Shown here piece after piece: positions 3,941 through 40,506 of a stretch of 64,000 bases of DNA. The notes below the pieces were generated by a model. The model ran no database searches. It saw only the letters and a list, made by a program, of their open reading frames with translations, and had not been told where the DNA came from. The stretch spans positions 1,674,001-1,738,000 of the forward strand of contig NZ_JACHBQ010000001.1 of the NCBI RefSeq assembly GCF_014200405.1, given 5' to 3'. The DNA is from Cryobacterium roopkundense. GTDB taxonomy: Bacteria > Actinomycetota > Actinomycetes > Actinomycetales > Microbacteriaceae. The translations under genes were made by a program, and so were the position numbers. Positions within the stretch are counted from its first letter, which is position 1; every line of letters starts with the position of its first letter.

Positions 3941-4019
3941 TGCGAAACACACTTTCCAGATCCAAACGGTGATCGTCCACCGATTTCCCTGCGGTTGATG
4001 CGCAACGTGGCTCTAGCCG

Positions 4020-4349: not shown

Positions 4350-5997
4350 ATCCACCGATCGGGATCGAGATCTGACGGCGCGTTAAACCGAGAATGCCCA
4401 TCTGATCAGGTAAATTAGGACTTGTCAAGAGTTCAGATTTACCAACCAGAGGAGCATCTCGTAGATGCAAGTTTCCCACACCAACCGCGCCGTTTCTGCA
4501 TCATTCACCGACCCGAATCTCGTGTCGTCGGCGGGCTTGGTCCCGATCATGAAATTAGCCGCCCGTGCGGGGTTGGCGACCTTGGCCGATCAGTGGCTGA
4601 GCGTCCCCACCGACAAGGGCGCCAACGCCGGTCTGAAAGTCACGTCTCTGGTCGGCGGCATGGTCGCCGGCGCGGACTCCATCGACGACCTCGCCATTCT
4701 TCGTCACGGCGGCATGCGGAAAATCTTCAGCAACTGCTACGCGCCGTCAACGTTGGGGTCGTTTCTGCGCGCGTTCACGTTCGGTCACGTCCGGCAGCTC
4801 GACGCCGTCGCTTCCCGCTTCGTGCGGGGCCTGGCCGCGGAAACTCCGTTGCTCGTGCACGACACCGACGGCTACATGTTCCTCGACGTCGACGACACCA
4901 TCATCGAAGTTCACGGCCACCAGAAGGAAGGCTCCGGCTACGGGTACTCCGGGGTGCGCGGCCTCAACGCGATCCTCGCGACAGTCAAGACGGACGTATC
5001 GGCGCCGATCATCATCGGCCAGCGACTCCGGCGCGGTGCCTGCGGATCACCGCGCGGCGCGGCCCGTCTGATCCGTGACGCCCTCGCCACGATCAAACGG
5101 CTCCGCGGAGCGGGAAAAGCACGCGTGCTCTTTCGTGCCGACTCAGCGTTCTACGGGCACGCCTCCATCAGCGCAGCCCTCAAAGCCGGCGCCGACGTTT
5201 CGGTCACTGCCCGGATGGACCCCGCCATCAAACGAGCGATCGGAACGATCCCCGGCGCTGCCTGGACCGCAATTGAATACACCAACGCCATCTATGACGA
5301 AGGCAGCAAAACATGGATCAGTAACGCCGAAGTCGCCGAGGTCCCGTTCACCGCGTTCACCTCGCGCAAGAAGAGCGAGCACATCACCGGGCGCTTGGCC
5401 GTGCGGCGGATCCCGGAACTGAACAAGAAAAACCTCGACCAGCCAACCCTGTTCGACACCCACCGATTCCACGCCTTTTTCACCACCAGCACCCTCGACA
5501 CCGTCACCGCCGACAAAACCCACCGCGCCCACGCGGCGATCGAGCTCGTGAATTCCGACCTCAAAAGCAGCGCCCTGGCGCACCTACCCTCCGGTGTATT
5601 CACCGCCAACGCCGCCTGGCTGGTCATGGCCGTCATGGCGTTTAACCTCACCCGCGCCGCCGCGACGATCGCGGGAAACGGTCTCAGCCGATCGACCACC
5701 GCAACGATCCGCCGGAAACTTGTCAGCGTCCCCGCACGAATCTCAACCTCGGCGCGGCGCGTGACATTGCACCTGCCCGAACACTGGCCTTGGGAGAAAC
5801 CCTGGACGGCCCTGTTCACAAAGAACTTCCGGCCCCAACAACCCGCCCCCACCTGACCAACCAGCCGACACCGACATCAACAGGAGCACCAGTGGAACAC
5901 CCGGGCCGCGAGACCCGGACCACAACCACGCCCGAAACTCCGAAAGCTCGCCGAAACAAAATCAGGATCCGATCAGAGGTCGACCGGTGGATTCAGG
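4345..5997 (+). mobile_element. IS1380-family insertion sequence, copy 1
   Basis: A 1,653-bp element with terminal inverted repeats CCTGAATCCACCG... and ...CGGTGGATTCAGG. It is flanked by a perfect 5-bp duplication, CTTAG, at 4340-4344 and 5998-6002; 5-bp duplications are known for IS1380-family elements such as ISEcp1. The left end carries a block conserved in all three copies of the window (GGCGCGTTAAACCGAGAATG). One transposase gene fills the centre. The insertion broke a multi-PAS GGDEF-EAL gene. Confidence 0.93.
4465..5856 (+). CDS. IS1380-family transposase
   Basis: This 463-aa DDE transposase is full length for the IS1380 family. Likely catalytic acidic positions are visible in LDVDDTIIEVHGHQKEGSGY, in LFRADSAFYGH, and in a later AAIELVNSDLKSSALAHLPS block. 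The C-terminus is the family's AAWLVMAVMAFNLTRAA region. The ATG is preceded by GAGGAGCATCTCGTAG. It differs at many residues from the copies at 21658 and 38971, so these are related elements and not recent identical copies. Confidence 0.95.
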   Translation: MQVSHTNRAVSASFTDPNLVSSAGLVPIMKLAARAGLATLADQWLSVPTDKGANAGLKVTSLVGGMVAGADSIDDLAILRHGGMRKIFSNCYAPSTLGSFLRAFTFGHVRQLDAVASRFVRGLAAETPLLVHDTDGYMFLDVDDTIIEVHGHQKEGSGYGYSGVRGLNAILATVKTDVSAPIIIGQRLRRGACGSPRGAARLIRDALATIKRLRGAGKARVLFRADSAFYGHASISAALKAGADVSVTARMDPAIKRAIGTIPGAAWTAIEYTNAIYDEGSKTWISNAEVAEVPFTAFTSRKKSEHITGRLAVRRIPELNKKNLDQPTLFDTHRFHAFFTTSTLDTVTADKTHRAHAAIELVNSDLKSSALAHLPSGVFTANAAWLVMAVMAFNLTRAAATIAGNGLSRSTTATIRRKLVSVPARISTSARRVTLHLPEHWPWEKPWTALFTKNFRPQQPAPT

Positions 5998-9431: not shown

Positions 9432-10637
9432 TCAAGGGGTAGTGGGTGATTGGGCTTGATAAATTGTGCCGTCGCGGAGCATGGCGTAGAGGACATCGCA
9501 GCGACGTCGGGCGAGGGCGATGAGGGCTTGGTTGTGGCGTTTCCCTTGGGCGATCTTGCGGTCGTAGTACGTGCGGGAGACCGGGTCGCTGAGCGCCGCG
9601 AAAGCGGAGAGGAAGAGCGCGCGTTTGAGGGCTTTGTTCCCTCGTCTGGAGGGGTGCTCGCCGCGGATCGATGATCCTGATCGCCGGGTGACCGGGGCGA
9701 GGCCGGCGTAGGAGGCGAGGTGCCCGGCGGTGGCGAAGTCTTTGCCCGAGACTTCTGTGATCAGGCGGGCGGCGGTCCTCACGCCCACCCCGGGCATGCT
9801 GGTCAGGATCGGTTCCAGAGGGTGGGCGTCGACGAGCTCCTCAACCTCCACGGCGATCTCAGCGCGCTGGCGGCGGAGCGTCGCCAGCTGCTCGGCGAGG
9901 CGGGGCAACACGGCGCGCGTCGCGTTCGTGCCGCCCACGACGACGGTCTGTTCGGAGAGAGCCTGGAAGATTTCCTCGGCCAGGCGGCACCCGATCCGCG
10001 GCGCGAGCTTGAGCAGGCGCGTGCCGAGCCGGGTCAGGCCGGCGGCTTTCATCGCGGTCGGCGTCGGGTATTTCTGCAGCAGGTCCAGGACGGCAGGGTG
10101 GTCGAGGTGCGGGCCCAGAACCCGCTCGAGGGCTGGGTGGACCTGCATCAGTAGCCCCCGGATCCGGTTGCTGGTCGCGGTCATCTGACCGACGATGTCA
10201 TCGTCGAATCCGCACAGCATCGACAGCTCCGCCAGCTGCTCATCCTCGAGGCGCAACGGCCGCAGCGCATGCGGGAGGGTCCGGGCGGCCTCGGCGATGA
10301 TCGCGGCGTCGCGGGCGTCGGTCTTCGCTTCGCCGGGGTGCAGATCGGCGATGCGCCGCATCGCGAGGCCGGGTAGATACCCGACGAGGATGCCTTCGGT
10401 GTAGGCGACGGCGACGGCGACGGGCAAAGCACCGACGGTCTCGGGCTGGTCAACGACCAAGAGCACCTGGCCGCGGAGCTTGAGCTTGCGGATCACCGCG
10501 CGCAGTTGTACTTCGTCATTCGGGAGGGCCTTGTCGTAAAGTCGCTTCCCAGTGCGGTCCAACGCGACCGCGTTATGCTCGCTCTTCCCGACGTCAACAC
10601 TGATGAACACGTCAACGCTGTCGTAGTTCTCAATCAT
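9432..10637 (-). CDS. IS110-family transposase (DEDD recombinase)
   Basis: A 401-aa IS110 transposase. The N-terminal RuvC-like domain starts with VFISVDVGKSEHNAVAL (first catalytic Asp near residue 14) and contains LVVDQPETVG and GEAKTDARDAAIIAEAA. The C-terminal domain holds LTSMPGVGVRTAARLI and the conserved serine-containing stretch SIRGEHPSRRGNKALKRALF. The start is the ATG of MIENYDSVDV; the open frame continues upstream into non-conserved sequence, so the longer version is unlikely. The family is now known to be guided by a bridge RNA made from the element's non-coding end. Confidence 0.95.
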   Translation of the reverse strand: MIENYDSVDVFISVDVGKSEHNAVALDRTGKRLYDKALPNDEVQLRAVIRKLKLRGQVLLVVDQPETVGALPVAVAVAYTEGILVGYLPGLAMRRIADLHPGEAKTDARDAAIIAEAARTLPHALRPLRLEDEQLAELSMLCGFDDDIVGQMTATSNRIRGLLMQVHPALERVLGPHLDHPAVLDLLQKYPTPTAMKAAGLTRLGTRLLKLAPRIGCRLAEEIFQALSEQTVVVGGTNATRAVLPRLAEQLATLRRQRAEIAVEVEELVDAHPLEPILTSMPGVGVRTAARLITEVSGKDFATAGHLASYAGLAPVTRRSGSSIRGEHPSRRGNKALKRALFLSAFAALSDPVSRTYYDRKIAQGKRHNQALIALARRRCDVLYAMLRDGTIYQAQSPTTP

Positions 10638-10870
10638 GAGTTCCCCTGTCAGCCATGCGGACCGGTTGGCCTGTCCGCGGCATCGAGTCTCGGCATCCAC
10701 GTTACGTTCGGCCAAGAAACGAGTTCCAGTCGAGCCCCTATTAGCGATCACCCAATACCAGTCAGGCCCGGTGACAACACCCCCCGGATCATCAATGACT
10801 GGGGGCAATAACCATGCCGGGCCTAACAGGCCAACACCCTTCAGAAGCAAAGCTTCAAGGGCTACCTACA
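10638..10870 (-). ncRNA. Candidate IS110 bridge-RNA region
   Basis: This is the non-coding end upstream of the IS110 transposase, where bridge RNAs are encoded in this group of elements. It contains short inverted repeats able to form hairpins, such as CCCCCCGGATCATCAATGAC followed by TGGGGGC, and CCCTTCAGAAGC followed by AAGCTTCAAGGG. Placement follows established knowledge of IS110; that an RNA is made here, and where it starts, is inference. Confidence 0.4.
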
Positions 10871-14941: not shown

Positions 14942-15469
14942 TCAGTGCCTCGGCACTCGGCCCAGGAAGGCCAGCAGGCGATCGCTTGCGGAGGAGTTGC
15001 TGGGGACGTCGACCGGCGCAGCGAAGTTCTCCCCCCGCGAGCTGACGTTGAGGGTGGGTGAGACCAGCGCGAGGACGTCCTCGGCCAGCGACTCCGGGAT
15101 GCGGTGGGCGGGGTGGCGGGCCAGCCCGATATCCCAGCCGTGGGTCGTCAACTCGACCGCGCCGGCAATCGTTGCGTTCTCGACCCGCGTCGCATCGGCC
15201 GCGACAGTGAATGCGTGCGTCAGCTTTGCCAACCGCTCCTCCACCAGCGCCACTGGGCGGAGATCGTTGGTTCGTGGCGGCTGTGGAAGGGCGAGCATTC
15301 CCGTCTCGAGCAGACCGATTAGAGCGTCGATGACGTCGGCGAGGTGCAGGACGACCCGTCCCGCATTCCAGCCCTCACACGGCGTCGGTCGTCGGAGATC
15401 GTCGTTGGTCAGCTCGGACAGGACGCCACGCGCGTAGTTGGTGGCCCGGCCGAACAGCTCGGTGGTCAC
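14942..15469 (-). CDS. TIGR03086-type DinB/mycothiol maleylpyruvate isomerase-like protein
   Basis: A 175-aa protein starting at a GTG. The family pattern LRRPTPCEGWNAGRVVLHLA (with a metal-ligand His) and GAVELTTHGWDIGLARH (second His) are visible, as in TIGR03086 metal-binding proteins. These belong to the MDMPI N-terminal fold. The start codon overlaps the stop of the upstream ArsR-SRPBCC gene (GTGA), so the two are co-translated. The function may be in mycothiol-linked detoxification, by inference. Confidence 0.8.
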   Translation of the reverse strand: MTTELFGRATNYARGVLSELTNDDLRRPTPCEGWNAGRVVLHLADVIDALIGLLETGMLALPQPPRTNDLRPVALVEERLAKLTHAFTVAADATRVENATIAGAVELTTHGWDIGLARHPAHRIPESLAEDVLALVSPTLNVSSRGENFAAPVDVPSNSSASDRLLAFLGRVPRH

Positions 15470-16269
15470 GCGCGTGACCGCTCCGGCATGCTCCAGGGCG
15501 CCGTCGGCAGGATATCGCCGGTTTCCAGCAGGGACTTGAGGTTGGCGAGCACGGCAGGCCAGCCGCGCGAGATGCCGTTCAGCATGTCGGTGTTCGGGAG
15601 GTTCTCGTGGGTCACGGTCAGCCGGACGATGTTTTCGTGGGGCTCGACGAGGAACGTGACGACTGAAGGTCCGCCCGGCTTGTCGTCGTCGGAGTCCGCG
15701 AAGGTGATCACAAGCCGGGTGGGTGGCTCGGCCTCAAGTACCATGCCGGTCACGTCGATAGCGCCGGAACCGTCCACTCGCCGATGTTCCCAAGGGGAGC
15801 CGGGTTGCCAGTCGGACACATTGGCGTGTCCCCAGTAGCGCGCGGTCAGGTCGGCGTCGGTCAGGGCCTGCCAGACGTCTTCGCTGCTCGCACGGATATA
15901 GGTGACGTAAACGTACGTCAGCACTGATGTCCTAGTGTCTGTCATTGCATACTCCTCTGCTCGGTTTTTGATGGCGCTGATCGTGGCCAGCCGCGGTGCG
16001 TCGTAGGCCGCGATCCAGCGCTCGCCTATCTCGTGGATCGGTGCGGGGTTGAGGTAGTGCAAGCGCTCTCGCCCTTGCCGCACCACGTAGACGAGGTCTG
16101 CCTTGGCGAGGAGGTCGAGATGCTGCGTTGCCGACTGGCGGGCCATCTGAAGACTTCCGCAAAGCTCCGTGAGGGTCTGCCCGTTCCTGTCCCGGAGACG
16201 ATCGAGCAGGACGCGCCTGGTCGGGTCGGCCAACGCCTTGAACACCGGACCCAACGCTTCGTCAGTCAT
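15466..16269 (-). CDS. ArsR-type regulator fused to SRPBCC (AHSA1) domain
   Basis: A 267-aa fusion. Residues about 1-85 form an ArsR winged helix (VFKALADPTRRVLLDRLRDR, then LQMARQSATQHLDLLAKADL). Residues about 115-260 form an AHSA1/SRPBCC ligand-binding domain (IRASSEDVWQALTDADLTAR, later PHENIVRLTVTHENL and GWPAVLANLKSLLETGD). Such fusions are known in Actinobacteria and probably link binding of a hydrophobic ligand to repression. It is translationally coupled to the TIGR03086 gene, so it likely regulates its own two-gene operon. The ATG at 16269 was chosen because MTDEALGPVFKALADPTRR is the usual start. Confidence 0.87.
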   Translation of the reverse strand: MTDEALGPVFKALADPTRRVLLDRLRDRNGQTLTELCGSLQMARQSATQHLDLLAKADLVYVVRQGRERLHYLNPAPIHEIGERWIAAYDAPRLATISAIKNRAEEYAMTDTRTSVLTYVYVTYIRASSEDVWQALTDADLTARYWGHANVSDWQPGSPWEHRRVDGSGAIDVTGMVLEAEPPTRLVITFADSDDDKPGGPSVVTFLVEPHENIVRLTVTHENLPNTDMLNGISRGWPAVLANLKSLLETGDILPTAPWSMPERSRA

Positions 16270-16509
16270 ACATACATCATGCAGGCAAATACCTGCATGT
16301 GCAAGGGCGGCGGGCCACGGGTCTCGTTGACGAGCCAGCCCGCCGCCCCGACTTCCAGCGCCCAACTTGGTCCCTGCTCCCGGCGCCACGGACCAAGGTC
16401 GTCAGTCGTTCGTAAGAGGGACCTCTACGAACACGGCTCGGCGCTGAAATTCGATGGCGCTGAGCCGGATCCTCCGCCGGGCATCCCGTTGTGTAGTCGG
16501 TGGGGCTAT

Positions 16510-17643
16510 TTACGACGATCTCAGTGTTGCTTCGGTGGCGTTAGTGAACGCATCGAATAGTGCGGTAGACGGGGGCAGGACCTGAGTCATCAGGGCGACC
16601 GCGACATCGTGCTCTGGCCAGCTGTACCAGAGTGTGCCTAGTCCACCGCCCCATCCGTAGCGGCGTCCGAATTCCCCGTTCGTTATTCCCACTCCGTACC
16701 CCCATCCGCCTCCGTCCAGGAAGGCCTGCGCCGAGGGGCCGGATCGCTGCTCCGCAGTGAGTTGATCGGAGGTCATTGCCGCCGCCGATTCGGGGGATAA
16801 CAATCCGCCGCCGTTATTGAGCAGCATCCTGGCGAATCGCAGCATGTCACTCACTGTGGACACCAGGCCGCCGCGCGCGTCGGGGAATGCTGGCGGTGTC
16901 GACCACCGGCTGTCGAGGGCGCTGTCGAAGCGGACCAAACCGTTCTCGCTTTGAGCGAAGGCGGGCACGAGATGTCGCGGTGAGGCGACGAACCCGGTCT
17001 GGAACATGGCCAGTGACGTGAACAATCGCTCGCGCATCAGAACATCCAAAGGGCTTTCCGCGGCGCGGGAGAGCACGACTCCCAGCAGTGCGTAGGCGAG
17101 CTCGTAGCGCCATACCGTGCCTGGCTGTTCCAGCAGGGGCAGTGCTGCAAAGCGGGTCACCCAGTCGCTGGGCTCAAGCGTCCTCGAGGGGTCAGGAGGC
17201 CCAAACCCCAGCCCGGCCGCTGCGGCTGCCTCGACCGTCGGACAGGTGCTCTCGAAAACGAAACCAAAGCCCATTCGCATCGTCAGCAAATCCGCGATCG
17301 TCATCGAGCGTTGAGCTGGCACAGTCTCCTCGAGCGCGCCATCGAGCTGACGCAGAACGCGGCGGCCGGTCAGCTCCGGGACGAACTTTTCGACGGTGTC
17401 GTCGAGGTTCAGTACCCCGTCCTGAACAAGGAGCAGTGCGACAGCGGCCACCATTGGCTTCGTGTTTGAGCTGATACGCATGACAGCATTGACGGGCATC
17501 GCGACGGTTCCACCGGGTTCGGTCTGTCCGACGGCGGCCACGGACCTGTGGTTGCCATGCAAAACGCCTACGACAGCGCCCGGGACCTCCCCATCGTCCA
17601 CCAGCGGACGGATTGTCTCGATGAGCTGCTCCGCATCCACCAC
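16510..17643 (-). CDS. Serine hydrolase (beta-lactamase/esterase EstB family)
   Basis: A 377-aa protein of the class C beta-lactamase-like serine hydrolases. The catalytic SxxK is seen as ISSNTKPMVAAVALL, and a tyrosine motif as WRYELAYALLGVVLSRA. The late GYGVGITNG...RRYGWGGGLGTLWYSW block matches the esterase-type HGG/KTG region, here with WGGGLGT. No signal peptide is seen, so it is probably cytoplasmic and more likely an esterase than a resistance enzyme. The start is set at a GTG (VVDAEQLIETIRPL), since the open frame before it lacks similarity. Confidence 0.82.
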   Translation of the reverse strand: MVDAEQLIETIRPLVDDGEVPGAVVGVLHGNHRSVAAVGQTEPGGTVAMPVNAVMRISSNTKPMVAAVALLLVQDGVLNLDDTVEKFVPELTGRRVLRQLDGALEETVPAQRSMTIADLLTMRMGFGFVFESTCPTVEAAAAAGLGFGPPDPSRTLEPSDWVTRFAALPLLEQPGTVWRYELAYALLGVVLSRAAESPLDVLMRERLFTSLAMFQTGFVASPRHLVPAFAQSENGLVRFDSALDSRWSTPPAFPDARGGLVSTVSDMLRFARMLLNNGGGLLSPESAAAMTSDQLTAEQRSGPSAQAFLDGGGWGYGVGITNGEFGRRYGWGGGLGTLWYSWPEHDVAVALMTQVLPPSTALFDAFTNATEATLRSS

Positions 17644-20488: not shown

Positions 20489-20842
20489 ATGCTGACTTTC
20501 GCTTCGCGTATTGACGTGATGAACCGGTTGGGTCGTGCGATGGCCGATCCGACCAGGTCTCGGATCCTGCTGTCTCTGCTGGAGGCCCCCGGGTATCCAG
20601 GTGCGCTGTCGCGTGATCTGGGGCTGACGCGGTCGAACGTGTCTAATCATCTGTCGTGCCTTCGCGGGTGCGGGATCGTGGCGGCGGTCCCCGAGGGCAG
20701 GTCGACCCGGTATGAGATCGCGGACCCGCATGTGACGCGGGCGTTGACGGCGTTGGTGGATGTTGTTATTGCCGTCGACGACGGCGTCGAGTGCGCCGAC
20801 GACGCATGTGATGTGCCGTTGTGCTGCGTGAACAGCGTATGA
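20489..20842 (+). CDS. cmtR: CmtR-type cadmium/lead-sensing ArsR repressor
   Basis: A 117-aa ArsR-family repressor closely similar to mycobacterial CmtR: MNRLGRAMADPTRSRILLSL, then YPGALSRDLGLTRSNVSNHL and SCLRGCGIVAAVPEGRSTRY. The metal-binding cysteines known in CmtR, C57 and C61 in the recognition helix, are present at the same positions, and C102 also matches the third ligand. The tail is unusually Cys-rich (C102, C107, C112, C113). Cd(II) or Pb(II) binding would release the DNA. The stop overlaps the start of the exporter gene as ATGA, so both are one operon. Confidence 0.9.
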   Translation: MLTFASRIDVMNRLGRAMADPTRSRILLSLLEAPGYPGALSRDLGLTRSNVSNHLSCLRGCGIVAAVPEGRSTRYEIADPHVTRALTALVDVVIAVDDGVECADDACDVPLCCVNSV

Positions 20843-21525
20843 GCGTGCCGGTCGCAGGCCCGGCCCGGGTCGTCGGACCGCTGCGAAAGCAGGTACTGCG
20901 GCGAAGGATCCGTTGGATCGTCGCGGCAACGATTGCCTATAACGTCGTGGAGGCGGTCATCGCCATCTCGGCTGGGACTGTCGCCTCGTCGGCTGCGCTG
21001 ATCGGCTTCGGCCTTGACTCTATTGTCGAGGTTCTGTCGGCTGGCGCGGTGGCATGGCAGTTCGCCGCCCCGGATCCGGAGAAGCGGGAGAAGGTCGCCC
21101 TCCGGTTTATCGCCTGGTCGTTCTTCGCTCTTGCCGCCTATGTCACCGTCGACGCCGGCCTGTCTCTGCTGGGCGTGCGGGCGGCGGAACACAGCCCGGT
21201 TGGCATTGTGCTGGCCGCGGTAAGCCTCGCCATCATGCCGTTCCTAAGCTTTGCTGAGCGACGCGCCGGCCGCGAGCTCGGCTCGGCGACCGCCGTCGCG
21301 GACTCGAAGCAGACCCTGATCTGCTCCTATCTCTCCGCAGCTCTGCTCGTCGGGCTGCTGCTGAACAGCCTCCTGGGGTGGGCCTGGGCAGACTCCGTCG
21401 CAGCCCTCGTGATTGTCGTCTTCGCCGTCCGCGAGGGGTTGGAGGCGTGGCGGGGCGACGCCTGTAAGGTGCCTGTGTCCGCCCTGACGGGTGAGCGCGA
21501 CGTCAAGAAGTGCGACTGCTGCTGA
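20839..21525 (+). CDS. Cation efflux (CDF-like) transporter
   Basis: A 228-aa integral membrane protein with five to six predicted transmembrane segments (for example WIVAATIAYNVVEAVIAISA, FIAWSFFALAAYVTVDAGLS, AALLVGLLLNSLLGWAWADS). Likely metal-site motifs of the cation diffusion facilitator fold are GFGLDSIVEVLSA in helix 2 and VADSKQTLICSYLSA in helix 5. It lacks the usual C-terminal cytoplasmic domain and ends with a Cys-rich tail, KKCDCC, which could handle soft metals. Co-translation with cmtR indicates Cd/Pb or Zn export. Confidence 0.85.
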   Translation: MSVPVAGPARVVGPLRKQVLRRRIRWIVAATIAYNVVEAVIAISAGTVASSAALIGFGLDSIVEVLSAGAVAWQFAAPDPEKREKVALRFIAWSFFALAAYVTVDAGLSLLGVRAAEHSPVGIVLAAVSLAIMPFLSFAERRAGRELGSATAVADSKQTLICSYLSAALLVGLLLNSLLGWAWADSVAALVIVVFAVREGLEAWRGDACKVPVSALTGERDVKKCDCC

Positions 21526-21537
21526 CCTGAGCCTTAG

Positions 21538-23185
21538 CCTCGATCCACCGGTCGAGTTGAGGTTGTAGCGGCGCGTTAAACCGAGAATGCCACTCGGATC
21601 AGGAAAAATAGAACTTACTTAGGGTTCATTTCGACCGATTCGAGAGGCATCTCGTAGATGCAACTTTTCCACAGTTCCAGCCGCTTGTCAGCCACCTTCG
21701 ACGACACAAATCTCGTGTCGGCTGCGGGGCTGGTCCCTGCGATGGCGTTGGCGGTGAAAACCGGCCCCAGCGACCTCGCCGATGCCTGGCTGACCCTGCC
21801 GGGGTACTTCGGCGCGAACTCCGGGTTGAAAGTCACCGCGTTGGTCGCCGGGATGCTCGCTGGAGCCGATTCGATCGACGACATGGCGTTGCTGCGGCAC
21901 GGCGGGATGAAGAAACTCTTCGTCGGGACGTATGCCCCGTCGACGTTGGGATCTTTCCTGCGGTCGTTCACGTTCGGTCACGTCCGGCGACTGGACGCCG
22001 TCGCCTGGCGCTGGCTAGTCAACGTCGCCGCACACACTCCGATCGTGACGGGAATCGATGATTATGCTCTGGTGGACATCGACGACACGATCAAGGAAGT
22101 CCACGGTTATCAGAAGCAAGGCTCCGGTTACGGCTACTCCGGAGTGCGCGGTTTGAACGCTCTGATCGGCATCGTCTCCACACCCCAGGCGGCCCCGATC
22201 ATCATCGGGTCCCGGCTGCCGAAAGGAGCGGCAGGTTCCCCGCGCGACGCGGGAAAGTTCGTGGGAGATGTCCTCGCCACCGTGAAACGCCTCCGCAGCC
22301 AGACGGCCGCCGGCCTGATGCTGCTGCGCGCCGACAGCGCGTTCTACGGCCACGCGGTCGTCGCGGCCGCGCATCGGGCTGGCGCGAAAGTCTCCATCAC
22401 AGCCCGGATGGACCCGGCCGTGAAACGAGCTATCGGCACGATCACGGATGACCAATGGACGACTATCAACTACACCGACGCGATCCGTGACGAGGCCACC
22501 GGCGCGTGGATCTCATCCGCCGAAGTCGCGGAAGTTCGGTTCACCGCCTTCAGTTCACGCAAGAAAGCCGAACGCATCGTGGGGCGCCTGGTCGTGCGCC
22601 GGATCCCGGAACTGAATCAGAAGGCCACCGAAGGGCAGCCGACCCTGTTCGACACGCACCGGTTTCACGCGTTCTTCACCACGAGTGACCTGGATACCGT
22701 CACCGCGGATCAGACCCACCGGCAGCATGCCATCATCGAGCAGATTAATGCCGATCATAAGGACAGTGCGCTGGCGCACCTGCCATCCGGGGTGTTCACG
22801 GCCAACGCGGCCTGGCTCGTGCTGGCCACGATCGCGTTCAACCTCTCGCGCGCCGTTGGTTCGCTGGCCGGCGCAGATCTGGGCAAGGCACGCAGCGGCA
22901 CAATCCGTCGCAAACTCATCAGTATCCCCGCCCGCATCTCCACTTCGGCGCGGAAGATCACCCTGCACCTGCCGACAAGCTGGCCGTGGGAACCCGGATG
23001 GACGGCCGCGTTTGCGGCGGCCTGCGGCCCGCCGCAAACCGCCGCCACCTAACCACCAGCCATACGGCGAACGAAGACTTGGAACACCACCGGCAGCAAG
23101 GCCGGCAGCCTCGCCCTACCCGCCACCAAAACCCGGTTCTGAATTCAGCGACGCCGCTCACTCAAGGCGGAGCGGTGGATCGAGG
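21538..23185 (+). mobile_element. IS1380-family insertion sequence, copy 2
   Basis: A 1,648-bp element with ends CCTCGATCCACCGGT... and ...GGTGGATCGAGG, flanked by 5-bp duplications CTTAG at 21533-21537 and 23186-23190. It uses the same target word as copy 1. It landed 8 bp after the stop codon of the CDF gene, so no gene is broken, but it separates the exporter from the thioredoxin-like gene downstream. Confidence 0.92.
21658..23052 (+). CDS. IS1380-family transposase
   Basis: A 464-aa transposase aligned end to end with the other two in the window, including DIDDTIKEVHGYQKQGSGYG, LLRADSAFYGHAVV and AIIEQINADHKDSALAHLPS. It starts at the ATG after GGCATCTCGTAG. It diverges mainly in the first 60 residues (HSSSRLSATFDDTNL). 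Confidence 0.95.
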   Translation: MQLFHSSSRLSATFDDTNLVSAAGLVPAMALAVKTGPSDLADAWLTLPGYFGANSGLKVTALVAGMLAGADSIDDMALLRHGGMKKLFVGTYAPSTLGSFLRSFTFGHVRRLDAVAWRWLVNVAAHTPIVTGIDDYALVDIDDTIKEVHGYQKQGSGYGYSGVRGLNALIGIVSTPQAAPIIIGSRLPKGAAGSPRDAGKFVGDVLATVKRLRSQTAAGLMLLRADSAFYGHAVVAAAHRAGAKVSITARMDPAVKRAIGTITDDQWTTINYTDAIRDEATGAWISSAEVAEVRFTAFSSRKKAERIVGRLVVRRIPELNQKATEGQPTLFDTHRFHAFFTTSDLDTVTADQTHRQHAIIEQINADHKDSALAHLPSGVFTANAAWLVLATIAFNLSRAVGSLAGADLGKARSGTIRRKLISIPARISTSARKITLHLPTSWPWEPGWTAAFAAACGPPQTAAT

Positions 23186-23341: not shown

Positions 23342-23650
23342 ATGCGCGTACAGATTCTTCATATTGATGAGTGTCCGAACTGGGTCGAGGCGGCGAAGCG
23401 GGTGGAGGCGGCCCTGAACGAGCTGGGTCGTAGTGACGTCGAGCTGACATACTGCCTGCTAGCGGACAGCGTCGAGGCCGCGGCGTTCCCGTTCGCAGGT
23501 TCGCCGACGATCCTTCTCAATGGTGTGGACGCGTTCCCGACAGGTGTTCGAGTTTCCGATCTGGCGTGCCGGGTCTATCGCACTGACGGCGGTTTCGCTG
23601 GCGTGCCCACTGTCGCGCAGATCGTCGAGGCGATCCAGAACCAGGCCTGA
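23342..23650 (+). CDS. Small thioredoxin-like protein of metal-resistance type
   Basis: A 102-aa protein with a thioredoxin-like beta-alpha-beta start, VQILHIDECPNWVEAAKRVE, and a cis-proline region, FPFAGSPTILLNGVDAFPTG. The active site has a single Cys (ECPNW) in place of CxxC, plus a later DLACRVY Cys. Similar proteins are usually encoded near mercury or cadmium resistance genes, sometimes annotated as alkylmercury-lyase-like. The neighbours cmtR and the CDF exporter support a role in thiol or metal handling. A paralogue at 38729-40698 is disrupted by IS1380. Confidence 0.75.
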   Translation: MRVQILHIDECPNWVEAAKRVEAALNELGRSDVELTYCLLADSVEAAAFPFAGSPTILLNGVDAFPTGVRVSDLACRVYRTDGGFAGVPTVAQIVEAIQNQA

Positions 23651-24390: not shown

Positions 24391-25524
24391 ATGATCATGA
24401 CGCACTCGACCCTCCAAGAGGCTGTAGGGCAGGTAACCGCGGTAGCTTCCGCCCACGCCCAACAGGTAGATAGCGAGGGCACGTACCCCGTCGATTCAGT
24501 CGCGGCTCTCCGGTCGAGCGGACTGCTCGGTCTGGTGATCGGCGAGGAAGCTGGCGGCATGGGGGCCGGTCCTGTTGAGTTCACGGAGGTGCTGGGCGCG
24601 ATCGCGGCGGCGTGCGGATCGACCGCGATGATTTACCTGATGCATGTCGCGGCTGCCGTGACGGTGGCATCCGCCCCGCCCGCAGCAATGCCGGACCTGC
24701 TTGCGCGGATGGCTTCCGGAGAGGTACTCGGCACGCTCGCGTTCAGTGAGAAAGGGTCGCGATCGCACTTTTGGGCTCCGGTGTCGGAGTCGGTCGCGGA
24801 CGGTGACGACGTTCTCTTCTCTGCCTATAAAAGCTGGGTCACCTCGGCTGGCTACGCCGATGTCTACGTCATGTCGTCCAAGAGTGCGGTCGACCCGGAG
24901 ACGGTCGACCTGTATGCGATCCCGGCCGGTACCGTGGGCTTGGATATCGCCGGTCCTTGGAGCGGACTGGGGCTTCGGGGCAATGCATCGAGCCCGATGT
25001 CAGTAGAGGTGACCATTCCGGCGAGTTATCGCATCGGTGAACCGGGCAGCGGGTTCGGCACAATGATGGCCACGGTGCTGCCGTGGTTCAATCTGGGCAA
25101 TTCGGCCGTGTCGCTCGGGCTCTCCACCGCAGCAGTGGATGCCGCTGTCGCGCACGTCACCGGTGCCCGGCTCGAGCACCTGGATCAGGCGCTTTCCGCA
25201 TTGCCGACTATCCGGGCGCAGATTGCGAAGATGAGCATCACGTTGGCGGCGCAGACGTCCTATCTCGCGCAGGCGGCCGCGAAAGTGGCAACCCCGGCCG
25301 GAGACACGGCGCTGTTCGTGCTCGGGGTGAAGGCCTCGGCGAACGATGCCGCGCTGATCATCACCGAATCGGCCATGCGGGTATGTGGCGGTGCGGCGTT
25401 CTCGAAACATCTGCCCATCGAGCGGGCCTTCCGGGATGCGCGCGCGGGGTCGGTCATGGCGCCGACCGCAGACGTGCTCTACGACTTCTACGGTAAGGCC
25501 TTGACCGGCCTTCCGCTGTTCTGA
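24391..25524 (+). CDS. Acyl-CoA-dehydrogenase-like flavoprotein
   Basis: A 377-aa member of the acyl-CoA dehydrogenase superfamily, full length for the fold. The N-terminal helical domain (DSVAALRSSGLLGLVIGEEA, FTEVLGAIAAACGSTAMIYL), the middle beta domain (GTLAFSEKG, then FSAYKSWVTSAGYADVYVMS, IAGPWSGLGLRGNASSPM) and the C-terminal helical bundle ending VCGGAAFSKHLPIERAFRDA are all visible. The superfamily also includes flavin monooxygenases of sulfur compounds and amines (DszC/SfnC type), so the reaction cannot be read from sequence alone. It is the first gene of a five-gene operon; the next starts 7 bp later. The ATG at 24391 is chosen because of the AGGAGACC before it. Confidence 0.85.
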   Translation: MIMTHSTLQEAVGQVTAVASAHAQQVDSEGTYPVDSVAALRSSGLLGLVIGEEAGGMGAGPVEFTEVLGAIAAACGSTAMIYLMHVAAAVTVASAPPAAMPDLLARMASGEVLGTLAFSEKGSRSHFWAPVSESVADGDDVLFSAYKSWVTSAGYADVYVMSSKSAVDPETVDLYAIPAGTVGLDIAGPWSGLGLRGNASSPMSVEVTIPASYRIGEPGSGFGTMMATVLPWFNLGNSAVSLGLSTAAVDAAVAHVTGARLEHLDQALSALPTIRAQIAKMSITLAAQTSYLAQAAAKVATPAGDTALFVLGVKASANDAALIITESAMRVCGGAAFSKHLPIERAFRDARAGSVMAPTADVLYDFYGKALTGLPLF

Positions 25525-25531
25525 GGTTCGA

Positions 25532-26356
25532 ATGTCGAAACTCATCGGAGCCCCCTTGCTCATCGGAGCGGTCGCATACACCCCTAATGTTGTTCCCATT
25601 TGGGAAGGCATCCGCGAGTACTTCGACGAACCCGACACGGCGATGGACTTCGTGTTGTTCTCGAACTATGGACGTCTCGTCGACGCTCTTCAGGCCGGGA
25701 TGATCGATATCGCCTGGAATACAAATCTTGCGTATGCGCGGTCAGTGCTTCAGACCGATGGGCACGTGCGGGCGCTAGCCATGCGCGACACCGACGCCAA
25801 CTTTTCCACGGTGTTTGTCGGGGCGGCGGGAAGCGGCTGGTTCGGTCCCGAGGACATTGCGACCCGGCGATTGGCCCTCGGGTCGGCGGACTCGGCTCAC
25901 GCCGCGATTCTGCCTCTACATTATCTGCGCGCGGCCGGGGTGGCTGTCGATCAAATGCATATCCAGCGCTTCAACAGCGACATCGGCAAACACGGTGACA
26001 CCGGTCGCAGCGAGCTGGACGCGATCGATGCGGTGCTGGCTGGCGATGCTGATGTCGCCGCAATCGGCATCACGGTGTGGGAGAACATCGGCCGTGGCGA
26101 CCTGATGCCGGGGATGCTCGAGCCGGTCTGGCAGACCGAGTCCTACTCACACTGCATGTTCACTGCCCTCGACACTCTGCCTGAGGCGGTTTACGCACCG
26201 TGGGTGGCGAAACTGCTCGACATGGACTGGAACGTGCCGGCGCACCGACGAATCCTCGAGCTGGAGGGACTCACCCGATGGGTCGGGCCGCACCTCGAAG
26301 GCTACGAGGGGCTATTTCAAGCGATCAAAGAACAGGGGGTCGACTCCCGATGGTAA
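25532..26356 (+). CDS. PhnD/SsuA-fold substrate-binding-like protein without signal peptide
   Basis: A 274-aa periplasmic-binding-protein fold. Features include LLIGAVAYTPNVVPIWEGIR, FVLFSNYGRLVDALQAGMID (typical of phosphonate/sulfonate binders), a lobe-2 LALGSADSAHAAILPLHYLR and ADVAAIGITVWEN. It starts at MSKLIGAPLLIGA and has neither a Sec/lipoprotein signal nor an upstream in-frame extension that would give one, so it should be cytoplasmic. No ABC permease or ATPase gene is near. It may instead act as a ligand-binding or enzyme-like protein in the operon's pathway. Its TAA overlaps the start of the radical SAM gene. Confidence 0.8.
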   Translation: MSKLIGAPLLIGAVAYTPNVVPIWEGIREYFDEPDTAMDFVLFSNYGRLVDALQAGMIDIAWNTNLAYARSVLQTDGHVRALAMRDTDANFSTVFVGAAGSGWFGPEDIATRRLALGSADSAHAAILPLHYLRAAGVAVDQMHIQRFNSDIGKHGDTGRSELDAIDAVLAGDADVAAIGITVWENIGRGDLMPGMLEPVWQTESYSHCMFTALDTLPEAVYAPWVAKLLDMDWNVPAHRRILELEGLTRWVGPHLEGYEGLFQAIKEQGVDSRW

Positions 26357-27348
26357 TCATGGCGCTGATGCGCACTCTCGAGCAAATGGCCGAGGGTGAT
26401 ACGGCAGAGTTTGCGGTGTCGTCGGCGAGCGAACTGGACCTCGTGCGCCGATGGTGTGAAAAGACGGGCAACACCCTCGTGAGCACCCTGATGGTCGAAC
26501 AGGACACTGGCCAGGTGACCGTCGGCCGAGGCCGCCCGCGAAACCCCGGCAGCATGATTCCCCCCGACCGGATGCCCGGAGCGCGCCTGTGGCTGTACAC
26601 GAACTTCCACTGCAACCTGGCCTGCGACTATTGCTGCGTCGCGTCGTCGCCGAAGGCCGATCCGCGACTGCTCGGCATCGACAACATCCAGGCGCTCGTC
26701 ACTGAGGCCGCCGACTGGGGCGTGCAGGAGCTGTACCTCACCGGCGGCGAACCGTTCCTGCTCCCCGACATCGACGTTATCGTGCGCGCCTGCGTCGACC
26801 GGCTGCCGACCACACTGCTGACCAACGGGATGCTGTTCCGCGGCCAGGGGTTGCGGAAACTGCAGGCGATGCCGCGGCAGGGCTTTGCACTGCAAATCAG
26901 TGTGGACTCGCCGACCGCCGAGGTGCATGACGCACACCGCGGCGCCGGGAGTTGGGGACGGGCCCTTGCCGGGATTCGAGTGGCGCTCGATGAGGGATTC
27001 ACCGTGAGGGTGGCCGCGACAATCTCGGCGAATGATGATCCGGCCCTTGACGAGCTGCATGCGCTGTTCGACGGGCTCGGAATCCCGCGAGCGGATCAGA
27101 TCATCCGTCCGATCGCCCTTCAAGGCGTCGCCGAAGAGGGGGTCGCATTCACGCGCGAATCGCTGATCCCCGAGGTGACCGTGACGGCGGAAGGTATCTA
27201 CTGGCACCCCGTTGCAGCTCTTGACGAGAAGGCACTGGTGAGCCGCCAGATACTGCCTCTGGCTCCCGCACTCGACCGGGTGAGTGAACTCTTCACCGAA
27301 CAGTGGTCCTCGGTCACGTCTGCCACGTCCATGTTCGCCTGCGCCTGA
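26350..27348 (+). CDS. Radical SAM protein with N-terminal TusA-like domain
   Basis: A 332-aa protein. Residues about 1-60 resemble a TusA/SirA sulfur-carrier fold: VIMALMRTLEQMAEGDTAEF, then LVRRWCEKTGNTLVS, lacking the N-terminal CPxP active-site cysteine but keeping the RWCEKTG cysteine (C36). Residues about 78-290 form the radical SAM barrel, with the cluster motif CNLACDYC (C88, C92, C95, followed by C96) and GGEP at 132-135 (LTGGEPFLLP). It ends in ...SMFACA with a final Cys. It could modify a peptide, a cofactor or a sulfur compound; no precursor peptide was found. The ATG at 26350 overlaps the upstream stop codon, indicating tight coupling. The longer frame upstream overlaps the previous gene and is not credible. 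Confidence 0.85.
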   Translation: MVIMALMRTLEQMAEGDTAEFAVSSASELDLVRRWCEKTGNTLVSTLMVEQDTGQVTVGRGRPRNPGSMIPPDRMPGARLWLYTNFHCNLACDYCCVASSPKADPRLLGIDNIQALVTEAADWGVQELYLTGGEPFLLPDIDVIVRACVDRLPTTLLTNGMLFRGQGLRKLQAMPRQGFALQISVDSPTAEVHDAHRGAGSWGRALAGIRVALDEGFTVRVAATISANDDPALDELHALFDGLGIPRADQIIRPIALQGVAEEGVAFTRESLIPEVTVTAEGIYWHPVAALDEKALVSRQILPLAPALDRVSELFTEQWSSVTSATSMFACA

Positions 27349-27365
27349 CACGAAACGGGAGCGCC

Positions 27366-27914
27366 ATGACCAAGACCACCCCCACCACCGCACTGCCATT
27401 CATCAACCAGATCGAGACCGGGCGTCCCACTCGCGTGGTTCTGGCCGCCGTCCGGATCGCAGTGGGGTTGATGTGGCTACAGAATGTGAATTGGAAACGC
27501 CCGCCCGACTTCGGGCAGGCTGCCGACAACGGCCTCTACCAGTACACGGCGGATGCGGTGAAGCATCCGGTGCTCGGGGCGTTCAGTTGGCTGGTTGAGA
27601 ACGTCATTTTTCCCAGCTTCGCGCTCTTCGGCTGGGGTGTGCTGATCGCGGAATTCTGTCTTGGCGCTTTCCTGCTCGTGGGCTTCCTGACCCGCTTCTG
27701 GGCGGCCATCGGCATCCTGCAGACCCTTGCCATCACCCTCTCTGTGCTGAACACCCCCGGAGAGTGGCAGTGGAGTTACTACCTGATGTTCGTCGCACAA
27801 TTCGTGATTCTGGCAACGGCCGCCGGGCGGATCGCCGGCGTCGATGGCCTGCTGAGACCCCGATGGTCGCTCACCCGCGGTCGACCGGCTCGGATTGCGA
27901 TGACGCTGTCATGA
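27366..27914 (+). CDS. DoxX-family membrane protein
   Basis: A 182-aa membrane protein with four predicted helices (VVLAAVRIAVGLMWLQNVNW, IFPSFALFGWGVLIAEFCLG, FWAAIGILQTLAITLSVLNT, YYLMFVAQFVILATAAGRIA). This is the DoxX/DoxD type, whose members serve thiosulfate:quinone oxidoreductase in archaea, or membrane redox and thiol-stress complexes in mycobacteria. It starts 17 bp after the radical SAM gene. Together with the TusA-like domain it suggests a link to sulfur or quinone redox chemistry. Confidence 0.85.
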   Translation: MTKTTPTTALPFINQIETGRPTRVVLAAVRIAVGLMWLQNVNWKRPPDFGQAADNGLYQYTADAVKHPVLGAFSWLVENVIFPSFALFGWGVLIAEFCLGAFLLVGFLTRFWAAIGILQTLAITLSVLNTPGEWQWSYYLMFVAQFVILATAAGRIAGVDGLLRPRWSLTRGRPARIAMTLS

Positions 27915-28303
27915 ACGCCAGCAGACGCACCGGTGCCACACCTTCCACCTCTGAGGTCTGGCGTACCCGTGGCCTGATAGTCGCCGGTCTCACCGTGCTC
28001 AGTTCGTTGTTCTCGGTGCTTCACTACACGCCGCTGCAGTTCGTCTCGGTGAACCTGATACAAGCACTCGTGCTGGTCGTACTCGGTGCCATCGCCGCGC
28101 TTGGCTGTCTACTGAGGTTGCCCGTGCTCCTGCTTGCAAGCGGAGCAATCCTGATTGTCGTCGGGCTGGTGCGCCTCGTCACCTACGATGCGACGATCGG
28201 CATCATTTCCGGCTCGGTCAACGCCGCCGCCCTAATGGTCGGACTGGGTATCGCCCTCATCTCCATTTGGACTACCTCTCGGCCAATGCCGGAGAAGAAT
28301 TAA
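27911..28303 (+). CDS. Small four-helix membrane protein
   Basis: A 130-aa protein of unknown family, made almost entirely of hydrophobic helices (TRGLIVAGLTVLSSLFSVLH, NLIQALVLVVLGAIAALGCL, LPVLLLASGAILIVVGLVRL, SGSVNAAALMVGLGIALISI). Its ATG overlaps the DoxX stop codon as ATGA, so it is the last gene of the operon. It could form a complex with the DoxX protein; nothing more can be said from the sequence. Confidence 0.75.
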   Translation: MNASRRTGATPSTSEVWRTRGLIVAGLTVLSSLFSVLHYTPLQFVSVNLIQALVLVVLGAIAALGCLLRLPVLLLASGAILIVVGLVRLVTYDATIGIISGSVNAAALMVGLGIALISIWTTSRPMPEKN

Positions 28304-38850: not shown

Positions 38851-40506
38851 CCTGAATCCACCGGTCGACCTCAGATTCTGACGGCGCGTTAAACCGAGAA
38901 TACCCCTCTGATCAGCTAAAATAGTTGTTACTTAGACAAACTATTCAACGATCAAGGAGGCATCTCGTAGATGCAACTTTCTCACACTCACCGGTCCTTT
39001 TCTGCATCCTTCGACGACCCCAATCTCGTGTCGTCGGCCGGACTGGTGCCCACGATGGCTCTGGCCGAGAAAACAGGCCTCGGCGCGCTGGTCGATGAGT
39101 GGGTGAAACTGCCCGGTTACTTCGGCGCGAATGCCGGCCTGAAAGCGCTGGCACTGGTCGCAGGAATGCTCACCGGCGCCGACTCCATCGACGATATGGC
39201 CGTGCTCCGGCACGGCGCTCTCCGGAAATTGTTCACCGGAACCTATGCGCCCTCGACCCTGGGATCGTTCCTGCGCGCGTTCGCTTTTGGCCATGTCCGC
39301 CAGCTCGACGCCGCCGCGTCCCGGTGGCTGCAGAACCTCGGCGCCGTCACGCCGATCGTGACCGGTATCGACGACCTCGCCCTGGTCGATATTGACGACA
39401 CCATCAGGGAAGTGCACGGATATAAGAAGCAAGGCGCCGGGTTTGGCTACTCCGGTGTTCGCGGCCTCAACGCCCTGCTCGCCATCGTCAGCACCGGATC
39501 GGCCGCTCCGATCATCGTCAGCTCCCGGCTACGCAAAGGCCCCACCAACTCCGCCCGCGGCGCAAAGAAATTCGTCTCCGACACCCTCGCGACCGTGAAA
39601 CGACTGCGCAGCCCAACCGCAAAAGGAATGCTTCTCCTCCGAGCCGACAGCGCCTACTACGTCAGCGCCGTCATCCAAGCTGCCCTCCGTGCCGGGGCGA
39701 TGGTTTCGATCACGGCACGCCTGAATTCATTGGTGAAAGCGGGTATCAGCACCATCCCCGATACCGCGTGGACCCCGATCAAATACACCAATGCGATCTT
39801 CGACGACGCCACCGGGCGGTGGATCTCCGACGCGGAAGTCGCCGAAATCCCCTTCACCGCGTTCGGCTCCAAGAAGAAGAGCGAACAAATCCCTGGACGC
39901 CTCGTCGTGCGCCGCATCCCGGAACTGAACAAGACCGTCGCCGCCGGGCAAGGCACCCTTTTCGACCTGTTCCGCTTTCACGCGTTCTTCACCACCAGCA
40001 CCCTGAACACCGTTGACGCCGACAAAACCCACCGCCACCATGCGATCATCGAAAATTTGAACGCCGACATGAAAGCGTCGGCGATGGCGCACTTCCCGTC
40101 CGGCGTATTCACGGCCAACGCCGCCTGGCTGGTGCTGGCCTGCATCACGTTCAATCTCACCCGCGCCGCCGGCACCCTCGCCAATCCCGCCCTCGGAAAA
40201 GCCGTCACCGCGACCGTTCGCCGCAAACTCATCAACGTCGCCGCCAGAGTATCCACGTCGGCACGACGCGTCACATTGCACCTGCCCGAAAGCTGGCCCT
40301 GGGAAGAAGGCTGGTCGGCGCTGTTCACCAGCGTTTGCAACCCGCCCGGCCGCGCCGCCACCTAACCATCGAGCCCGACCGGGCGCAACCAGGAACCCCA
40401 GTGGAACACCCAGGCATCAAGGCCCACAGCTCGACCGAGCCCAAAACCCCGAAAAAGGATCGCGCCCAAATCAAGAATTCATCAGAGGCCAACCGGTGGA
40501 TTCAGG
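38851..40506 (+). mobile_element. IS1380-family insertion sequence, copy 3
   Basis: A 1,656-bp element with inverted ends CCTGAATCCACCGGT and ACCGGTGGATTCAGG, flanked by CTAAA at 38846-38850 and 40507-40511. The target word differs by two bases from the CTTAG used by the other two copies. The left end contains the conserved block GGCGCGTTAAACCGAGAATA. Confidence 0.93.
38971..40365 (+). CDS. IS1380-family transposase
   Basis: A 464-aa transposase, collinear with the other two: DIDDTIREVHGYKKQGAGFG, LLRADSAYYVSAVIQAALRA, AIIENLNADMKASAMAHFPS. Compared with the other copies it has AYYVSAV where they have AFYGHA, next to the catalytic Asp; whether this alters activity is unknown. The frame is intact. 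Confidence 0.94.
   Translation: MQLSHTHRSFSASFDDPNLVSSAGLVPTMALAEKTGLGALVDEWVKLPGYFGANAGLKALALVAGMLTGADSIDDMAVLRHGALRKLFTGTYAPSTLGSFLRAFAFGHVRQLDAAASRWLQNLGAVTPIVTGIDDLALVDIDDTIREVHGYKKQGAGFGYSGVRGLNALLAIVSTGSAAPIIVSSRLRKGPTNSARGAKKFVSDTLATVKRLRSPTAKGMLLLRADSAYYVSAVIQAALRAGAMVSITARLNSLVKAGISTIPDTAWTPIKYTNAIFDDATGRWISDAEVAEIPFTAFGSKKKSEQIPGRLVVRRIPELNKTVAAGQGTLFDLFRFHAFFTTSTLNTVDADKTHRHHAIIENLNADMKASAMAHFPSGVFTANAAWLVLACITFNLTRAAGTLANPALGKAVTATVRRKLINVAARVSTSARRVTLHLPESWPWEEGWSALFTSVCNPPGRAAT

Follow-up and report, generated by a model that had tools for sequence, protein, structure and literature searches.

A compact five-gene cassette at positions 24391 to 28303 of a stretch of the Cryobacterium roopkundense genome raises the question of what an acyl-CoA-dehydrogenase-fold flavoprotein (A), a PhnD/PtxB-fold protein (B), a radical S-adenosylmethionine (SAM) enzyme (C) and two membrane proteins (D and E) do together. 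The stretch, referred to here as the window, is 64,000 nt long (assembly GCF_014200405.1, contig NZ_JACHBQ010000001.1, positions 1,674,001–1,738,000, forward strand). An earlier sequence-only reading had proposed that the genes are co-transcribed and might form a small pathway for a sulfur- or phosphorus-containing molecule. We favor the reading, with a probability of about 0.5, that the cassette is an accessory module of the Rv1678–Rv1681 type, named after genes of Mycobacterium tuberculosis, and that it serves a methylthioxylose (MTX)-type pathway that places a 5-deoxy-5-substituted pentofuranose, derived from a 5′-modified adenosine, on a surface glycan. A link of some kind between the cassette and the MTX-type pathway is quite probable, and such a link to surface-sugar clusters had not been foreseen by the sequence-only reading.

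All five open reading frames (ORFs) lie on the same strand and start with ATG, with gaps of +7, −7, +17 and −4 bp between them, which agrees with the earlier description in both coordinates and strand, and they likely constitute one transcription unit, as that description had held (Table 1). The products of A, B, C and E each score above the curated NCBIfam cut-off of families named after Rv1678–Rv1681, and A, B and C are adjacent, co-directional and in the same order as in M. tuberculosis. In mycobacterial and rhodococcal loci, by contrast with the separate D and E genes that follow C here, there is a single longer D-type protein (302–332 aa where cleanly bounded) encoded upstream of A, and in a Rhodococcus copy (L045) this protein also bears the E domain (74 bits). 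For this reason, D and E look like a split Rv1678, as judged from their domain matches. The DoxX match of D, at 21.9 bits, falls under its cut-off of 23.6. Unlike at Rv1678–Rv1681, inspection by eye showed neither a Crp/Fnr nor a peroxiredoxin-like gene next to the window copy. The families are thus already named, and the earlier statement that no such system had been described holds only for function: in the open-licence literature, we found no tested function for the cassette and no description of its MTX-type context or of the candidate selenocysteine-containing relatives described below. In two papers, the roles given for genes of the Rv1678–Rv1681 set are annotations, namely a putative phosphonate transporter component (PMC8562490) and molybdopterin synthesis (PMC4202705).

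Table 1. Genes of the cassette, with positions in the window and the family matches of their products.
Gene	Product	Position	Strand	Match
A	Acyl-CoA-dehydrogenase-fold flavoprotein, Rv1679/FadE16 family	24391..25524	+	NF049984 632.6 bits (cut-off 600)
B	PhnD/PtxB-fold protein, Rv1680 substrate-binding-protein-like family	25532..26356	+	NF049985 470.5 bits (cut-off 400); PF12974 97.2 bits
C	Radical SAM protein, Rv1681/MoeX family	26350..27348	+	NF049973 504.3 bits (cut-off 380)
D	DoxD/DoxX-like membrane protein, resembling the N-terminal part of Rv1678-type proteins	27366..27914	+	DoxD PF04173 33.1 bits (cut-off 22.7)
E	Small membrane protein, resembling the Rv1678-type C-terminal domain	27911..28303	+	NF049986 81.6 bits (cut-off 50)

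The wider occurrence of the cassette was followed in the best 80 of 247 gene C relatives, taken from a scan in which each species was represented by one genome. Profiles of the cassette genes were run against all ORFs, and neighbors in flanks of at most 10 kb were tagged with our own profiles (>45 bits) using a codon-scored gene caller. B was tagged in all 80 loci, A in 75, D in 66 and E in 31; an overlap-filtered variant of the count gave 71 for B, 76 for A and, for two neighboring families introduced below, 33 for GT2 and 29 for TIGR04282. The co-occurrence of A, B and C exceeds chance and is conserved across at least four phyla, the 80 loci coming from Actinomycetota, Bradyrhizobium, one other alphaproteobacterial metagenome-assembled genome (MAG), Acidobacteriota, Myxococcota and Verrucomicrobiota. 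The sequence-only reading had staked its proposal in part on such co-occurrence in other genomes, and on this point the outcome is in its favor. The closest relatives of C in this set, at 85–95% identity, are from Cryobacterium, Frigoribacterium, Paenarthrobacter, Arthrobacter and an Aeromicrobium MAG. The order is A-B-C in Actinomycetota, where in one locus (L086) D and E separate A from B. In the Acidobacteriota and Verrucomicrobiota loci and in most of those from Bradyrhizobium, C faces B-A. Copies were found on 3 of 72,556 plasmids searched, and a search with NF049973 across the whole phylum gave 3 of 396 over the cut-off, our own genome among them.

The company kept by these loci points to surface sugars. 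When all other ORFs near the 80 loci were clustered without prior choice, the largest cluster was a group of TIGR04282 proteins and family 2 glycosyltransferases (GT2), present in 34 loci. The tagged neighbors were GT2 (34 loci), TIGR04282-type (30), GT87 (20), short-chain dehydrogenase/reductase (SDR; 13), GT-C (9), purine-nucleoside-phosphorylase-type phosphorylase (8) and 5′-methylthioadenosine phosphorylase (MTAP; 6), and they span about 15 lineages at the genus level, several of them MAGs, within Actinomycetota, Pseudomonadota, Acidobacteriota and Myxococcota. MTX is made from 5′-methylthioadenosine (MTA) and is transferred on the outer side of the membrane, with decaprenyl phosphate as the carrier in its donor (PMC11127046), and the proteins named MtxS and MtxT are Rv0539 and Rv0541c (PMC8780516). 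The neighbor layout matches the M. tuberculosis MTX cluster Rv0535–Rv0541c. The Phytoactinopolyspora cluster (L079) carries, in order, MTAP, GT2, TIGR04282, response regulator (RR), histidine kinase (HK), GT-C, SDR, D, E, A, B and C. That of Mycolicibacterium pyrenivorans (L053) reads MTAP, SDR, D, A, B, C and, further on, HK, RR, GT2, TIGR04282, methyltransferase and GT-C, so that the MTAP-SDR pair lies immediately upstream of the Rv1678-79-80-81 homologues. The TIGR04282 and GT2 proteins are fused in one ORF in two Glycomyces loci (L070 and L077). In M. simulans, one contig carries both the cassette and the MTX-type cluster, at most about 20 kb apart, and the cluster is flanked by menE, menA and fabH homologues, as in Rv0533c–Rv0542c. 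Each GT2-positive genome has a single gene found by this profile (split in one case), and chance adjacency within 20 kb should therefore be well under 1%.

The window genome itself has such a cluster (L132, C1:2797–2807 kb), consisting of GT87, methyltransferase, TIGR04282, GT2, RR, HK, SDR and MTAP genes. Homologues of MTA phosphorylase, SDR, an MtxS-like GT2 and a CofC-like protein are thus clustered there by our own profiles, and a GT87-tagged membrane protein is present instead of an MtxT-like GT-C, the form found in a mycobacterial cluster (L142). The cluster misses the curated cut-offs for MTAP (TIGR01694, 260.1 against 274.85 bits) and TIGR04282 (104 against 134), and we therefore call it MTX-type rather than MTX.

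Co-occurrence was also tested at the level of whole genomes in 151 Mycobacteriaceae and 199 Microbacteriaceae (350 genomes), with B as the marker of the cassette. In the Mycobacteriaceae, B was found in 4 genomes and GT2 in 58, and all four B-positive genomes were GT2-positive (one-sided Fisher test, 0.020); in the Microbacteriaceae, the numbers were 6 and 56, with nesting in 6/6 (0.0004). Pooled, 10 of 10 cassette genomes had GT2, compared with 114 of 350 overall. A TIGR04282-type gene was present in 26/26 cassette genomes, compared with 4/14 control genomes. Of these 26 regions, 20 were examined, and GT2 and TIGR04282 were found together in 17, SDR in 19 (one a fragment) and MTAP in 16. The Fisher tests ignore relatedness, apart from a collapse to genera, so that physical linkage is the stronger argument. 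The resemblance to the MTX capping pathway of lipoarabinomannan (Rv0535–Rv0541c) hence consists of nested co-occurrence together with physical linkage in several genera; unlike the genes of that pathway, the cassette is not named as a part of it in the accessible portions of its literature.

Several observations weigh against this connection. Two of the ten nesting positives (G150 and G000) were centers of the family draws, picked as known cassette bearers; without them, the Fisher values become 0.053 for the Mycobacteriaceae and 0.0014 for the Microbacteriaceae. When the latter are collapsed to genera, the value is 0.030, and it is 0.093 without our own genus. In the window genome, the cassette and the MTX-type cluster are about 1.1 Mb apart, and 46 of the 80 loci have no tagged GT2 in the available flanks, some of which are ended by contig ends. 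The MTAP homologues in L077 and L132 and all 26 TIGR04282-type genes are under curated cut-offs, and the clusters examined were equated with Rv0535–Rv0541c by synteny. Furthermore, far more genomes have the MTX-type GT2 than have the cassette. In 14 regions that lack the cassette (L158–L171), GT2, TIGR04282 and GT-C were tagged in 14/14, SDR in 13/14 and MTAP in 7/14. The cassette is thus accessory within MTX-type genomes and non-essential to that pathway.

We considered what the proteins themselves imply. In C, the CX3CX2C motif (C88, C92 and C95) and an extra cysteine, C96, are present in 79/79 aligned rows (2 of 81 were removed by a length filter), and further conserved cysteines occupy columns 36, 148 and 331. 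The last of these belongs to a C-terminal FxCA tail, with C331 in 78/79 rows and A332 and F329 in 77/79. The predicted structure (predicted local distance difference test (pLDDT) score 83.9) has an ordinary radical SAM core close to SuiB, SkfB, BlsE and MoaA, while the tail is unordered in the model (residues 328–332 below 50). The sequence-only reading had described C as a TusA–radical SAM protein, and this did not hold up: the TusA match is below threshold (20.2 against 28.6 bits), covers profile positions 13–57 only and begins past what we take to be the catalytic CPxP cysteine, so that no persulfide-carrying function follows for C. A role in molybdopterin biosynthesis, as the name MoeX implies, is very improbable and was rejected: the MoaA model scores 58.6 bits on C against a cut-off of 284.05, and C lacks what we take to be the C-terminal three-cysteine cluster motif of MoaA. 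Matches on viral contigs (25, with 21–37% identity over part of the protein) were taken as unrelated radical SAM enzymes.

The predicted structure of B (pLDDT 90.2) has PhnD1, ArrX, PtxB, HtxB and AioX as its nearest folds. The phosphite ligands of PhnD1 are S, T, S and H (PMC5700983). At the equivalent columns of B (79 rows), S121 is kept and is followed by A/G122, H/Q123 and E/D161. As the T, S and H ligands are replaced and only the first S is retained, the oxyanion site predicted for B is rebuilt relative to the phosphite site. B also differs from this group of proteins in an invariant GKHGDTG loop and in having no adjoining transporter, as the sequence-only reading had pointed out; H207 and C208 also stand out. 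The fold itself would suit a free-standing use of organosulfur compounds or phosphonates, in which B binds a sulfonate or phosphonate, A oxidizes it and the DoxX-like protein passes on the electrons, and A is weakly similar to SfnB (76.4 bits) and to 3-sulfinopropanoyl-CoA desulfinase (100.6 bits). With no adjoining ATP-binding cassette (ABC) transporter, a changed site and a strong association with sugar genes instead, such a use is improbable. Of the pathway that had been suggested earlier, a possible relation to sulfur stands, while the binding of phosphonate or sulfonate is weakened.

The alignment of A (71 rows, 5 of 76 having been removed by length) has alanine (A357) in 71/71 rows at the position that we take to be that of the catalytic glutamate in medium-chain acyl-CoA dehydrogenase (MCAD); a glutamate elsewhere is still possible. 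A may thus be a monooxygenase-like flavoprotein. MTX also has a methylsulfinyl form, and the missing canonical glutamate would be in keeping with a cassette that sets the oxidation state of the methylthio group, with A as an S-oxygenase and D, E and neighboring thiol enzymes as redox partners. The MTX-type cluster of the window genome bears a membrane molybdopterin oxidoreductase that is weakly SoxC/MsrP-like (48.6 and 33.2 bits; far under the cut-offs), and in M. tuberculosis, rv1676 and dsbF adjoin the redox regulator Cmr (PMC5499769). This explanation leaves the radical SAM enzyme and B without a part to play, however, and it would have A act on a sugar that is added outside the membrane (PMC11127046), yet A, B and C have no export signal evident by eye. 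We consider it unlikely.

More distant relatives of C, 35–42% identical to five cassette enzymes, form a sister clade in which the reading frame ends in IR or IK (FR in L175) followed by TGA, GCG or GCT, and a TGA or TAG stop. This TGA-GCN-stop arrangement occurs in 8/8 sister-clade loci (L011–L016, L188 and L175, from eight genomes or records) and aligns with C331-A332-stop of the cassette enzymes. On the Miltoncostaea oceani plasmid, which belongs to this clade, selD, selA and selB lie 2–4 kb upstream on the opposite strand, with A and B on the downstream side. The bacterial selenocysteine insertion sequence (bSECIS) model requires a loop of 3–9 nt with G in the first two places, 16–37 nt after the UGA, and a stem of at least 4 bp (PMC13188914); the sister-clade hairpins fall within its loop and distance limits. 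GGTC is found 18–20 nt past the TGA in 7/8 loci, and an unbroken GGTC hairpin of at least 5 bp is present in 6/8 selenocysteine (Sec) loci compared with 0/77 Cys-type genes, L012 having a mismatch and L175 another loop. With a looser definition (an unbroken stem of at least 6 bp and any allowed loop), the counts were 7/8 (all except L012) and 14/77. Over seven loci, 97.6% of the cells in the stem pair, with double changes in 3/6 pairs, and none of 500 shuffles reached the percentage paired or the covariation score, the stem having been read off the same sequences. SelB scored over its cut-off in 5/7 Sec-clade genomes and tRNA-Sec above 60 bits in 3/7, most of the assemblies being fragmented. 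Among database proteins, all 120 sister-clade entries listed (of 3105 matches) stop at IR, IK, IQ or II, and none has a CA end, whereas 119 of 120 cassette-type entries listed end in CA and one in CS. We regard the sister clade as a candidate selenoprotein family with a penultimate Sec (U-A-stop), whose listed database entries would be two residues short.

On the other side, the counts of double-changed pairs and of pair types were reached in 27/500 and 64/500 shuffles, respectively, the seven covariation rows include two proteins that are 95% identical (L011 and L013), and SelB is also over the cut-off in 5/13 Cys-type genomes. The five Sec-clade proteins tested score only 202–226 bits on NF049973 (cut-off 380), and Sec locus L182 has no MTX genes in the 10 kb available upstream. 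Apart from Miltoncostaea, Sec-clade loci have no tagged A and B, and therefore A and B need not share the step carried out by C. In L011, L012 and L013, the following gene may start at a GTG that overlaps this TGA; in L014, L015, L016 and L175, there is apparently no such overlap. A search of the Sec loci with Rfam gave no match at E values up to 1. Further searches for the Sec form by class found it in 3/66, 3/24 and 1/3 genomes, with L188 as the sole addition, and the accessible part of a 2026 review mentions TIGR04167 and TrsS as its only radical SAM proteins.

Five Sec loci (L181, L183, L184, L185 and L175) are in MTX-type clusters and have DoxX-type and AhpD-like genes next to C, while two short contigs (L180 and L182) hold AhpD-like, C, D and E genes only. 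The AhpD-like calls were made by eye; a domain match was obtained in L175, and at E 1e-10 the copy in L180 gave no family match. L181 also contains a second TGA-interrupted gene (15378–16703, + strand), AhpD-like and peroxidase-related (TIGR01926, 115.4 bits when read through; cut-off 81.8), and at 7583–8767 of L175 a TIGR04282-type protein (126.2 bits, cut-off 134) is fused to a Nudix (NudE-like) domain. In a third branch (L006–L010), the C relatives are fused to a calcineurin-like phosphoesterase, as judged by eye; the three that were aligned terminate in CA, with or without one more residue, and neighbors score over the cut-offs for TIGR04283 (L009 and L010) and TIGR04282 (L007). A C/U-A tail and glycosyltransferases of this kind as neighbors are thus common to three branches of one radical SAM family.

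A cysteine that can be replaced by Sec is usually redox-active or nucleophilic. In the accessory-module reading, C would generate a 5′-deoxyadenosyl radical, and its terminal Cys or Sec would hold or activate a soft acceptor (an S, Se or As species) or quench the radical, with A and B making or delivering the acceptor and D and E acting as membrane redox or export partners. The resulting 5′-substituted adenosine, MTA or an analogue, would be opened by the phosphorylase to a sugar-1-phosphate, which would then pass through CofC-like activation, an epimerase, polyprenyl transfer by GT2 and transfer to the surface by a membrane glycosyltransferase. Adenosyl radical addition followed by removal of the base is the logic of HpnH and HpnG, which make adenosylhopane and then ribosylhopane, and of the futalosine route; the likeness is one of proposed chemistry, the HpnH match being 59 bits against a cut-off of 225, and no hopanoid or menaquinone acceptor is implied.

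A closer parallel may be ArsS (TIGR04167) of arsenosugar biosynthesis, a radical SAM enzyme reported to adenosylate arsenic (PMC12159101). It shares with C the occurrence of Sec and Cys forms and the presence of TIGR04282/TIGR04283-type glycosyltransferases nearby, and these arsenosugar-linked names, together with ArsS adenosylation, make a maker or modifier of 5′-substituted adenosine the simplest reading of C by analogy. C is nonetheless distinct: the Sec clade scores 35–49 bits on TIGR04167 (cut-off 300), this model is not among the 25 listed of 66 families for C, and the tail is C/U-A-stop rather than the GxxU motif given for TIGR04167. That C performs an ArsS-like adenosyl transfer is possible, though doubtful. 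We put forward, still more tentatively, that C and its Sec sister might form, beside ArsS, a second lineage of radical SAM enzymes that transfer adenosyl groups. The terminal Cys or Sec would present a chalcogen or arsenic acceptor to the 5′-deoxyadenosyl radical, and the MTX-type machinery would turn the resulting 5′-substituted adenosine into an undescribed pentofuranose (thio-, seleno- or arseno-) displayed by many soil bacteria and by some mycobacteria at their surface; a Sec form of this kind would be a selenoprotein family missed in databases because its Sec is in the penultimate position. An arsenic-only version was set aside, no search aimed at ars genes having been made, and kept as a sub-case of the accessory-module reading. 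Distant ArsM-like methyltransferases were tagged in 13/80 loci, mostly of Bradyrhizobium (the copy tested scored 34 bits on PRK11873). In L086, an ArsM-like methyltransferase (3166–4528, − strand; 224.4 bits, cut-off 263) and, by eye, TusA-like and DsrE-like ORFs lie near the cassette.

The same terminal residue could instead return a hydrogen atom. C would then be a radical epimerase that abstracts hydrogen from a ribose-derived sugar (for example, at C3), with the Cys or Sec giving it back on the opposite face, ribo to xylo, in MTX. An SDR epimerase is, however, already tagged in most MTX-type regions (19/20 with the cassette and 13/14 without). Most cassette loci in Bradyrhizobium, Acidobacteria and Myxococcus are without SDR, yet retain A and B, for which an epimerase would have no obvious use. 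EpeE is only one among many similar-ranking folds for C. We regard such an epimerase as rather unlikely.

The surroundings of the window copy were examined by eye. Transposase- or IstAB-like ORFs lie on both sides of the cassette (706–2927, 4465–5856, 9432–10715, 21658–23052, 39055–40365 and 49259–51482), together with an integrase-like ORF (48240–49139) and a ParA-like ORF (54903–55607), which suggests a mobile region. Upstream are an ArsR-like regulator with a cation-efflux-like gene (20489–21525) and a small thioredoxin-like protein (23342–23650; NF049942, the DF family (seleno)protein model, 61.4 bits, cut-off 70) in the Cys form. A plasmid copy in Mycolicibacterium vanbaalenii (L174) has as neighbors a Crp/Fnr regulator, peroxiredoxin-like, deiodinase-like and carboxymuconolactone-decarboxylase-like proteins, CcdA, a methyltransferase and a TrsS-like radical SAM protein (335.5 bits, cut-off 490). 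A second radical SAM protein also occurs in Bradyrhizobium-type clusters (L091, L094, L095, L097–L101, L104, L106, L107, L109 and L110); in L097, it has a SPASM domain, with a tungsten-cofactor maturase as the nearest model (146.7 bits, cut-off 380).

The cassette is thus real, conserved and already named by family; as far as we have searched, its proposed pathway context and the candidate selenocysteine sister clade are newly recognized here. According to PMC4202705, moeX (Rv1681) is confined to the M. tuberculosis complex; same-family relatives are present in many other bacteria, which bears on the use of moeX as a marker. For the little-understood Rv1678–Rv1681 genes, the present results provide a pathway context, and they add a candidate selenoprotein family. 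What the terminal Cys or Sec of radical SAM family C holds has become a testable question. Finally, PMC11127046 calls it unclear whether the MTX reaction exists beyond lipoarabinomannan assembly, and the finding of an MTX-type GT2 in 56 of 199 Microbacteriaceae, together with a full-looking cluster in the window genome, bears on this remark.

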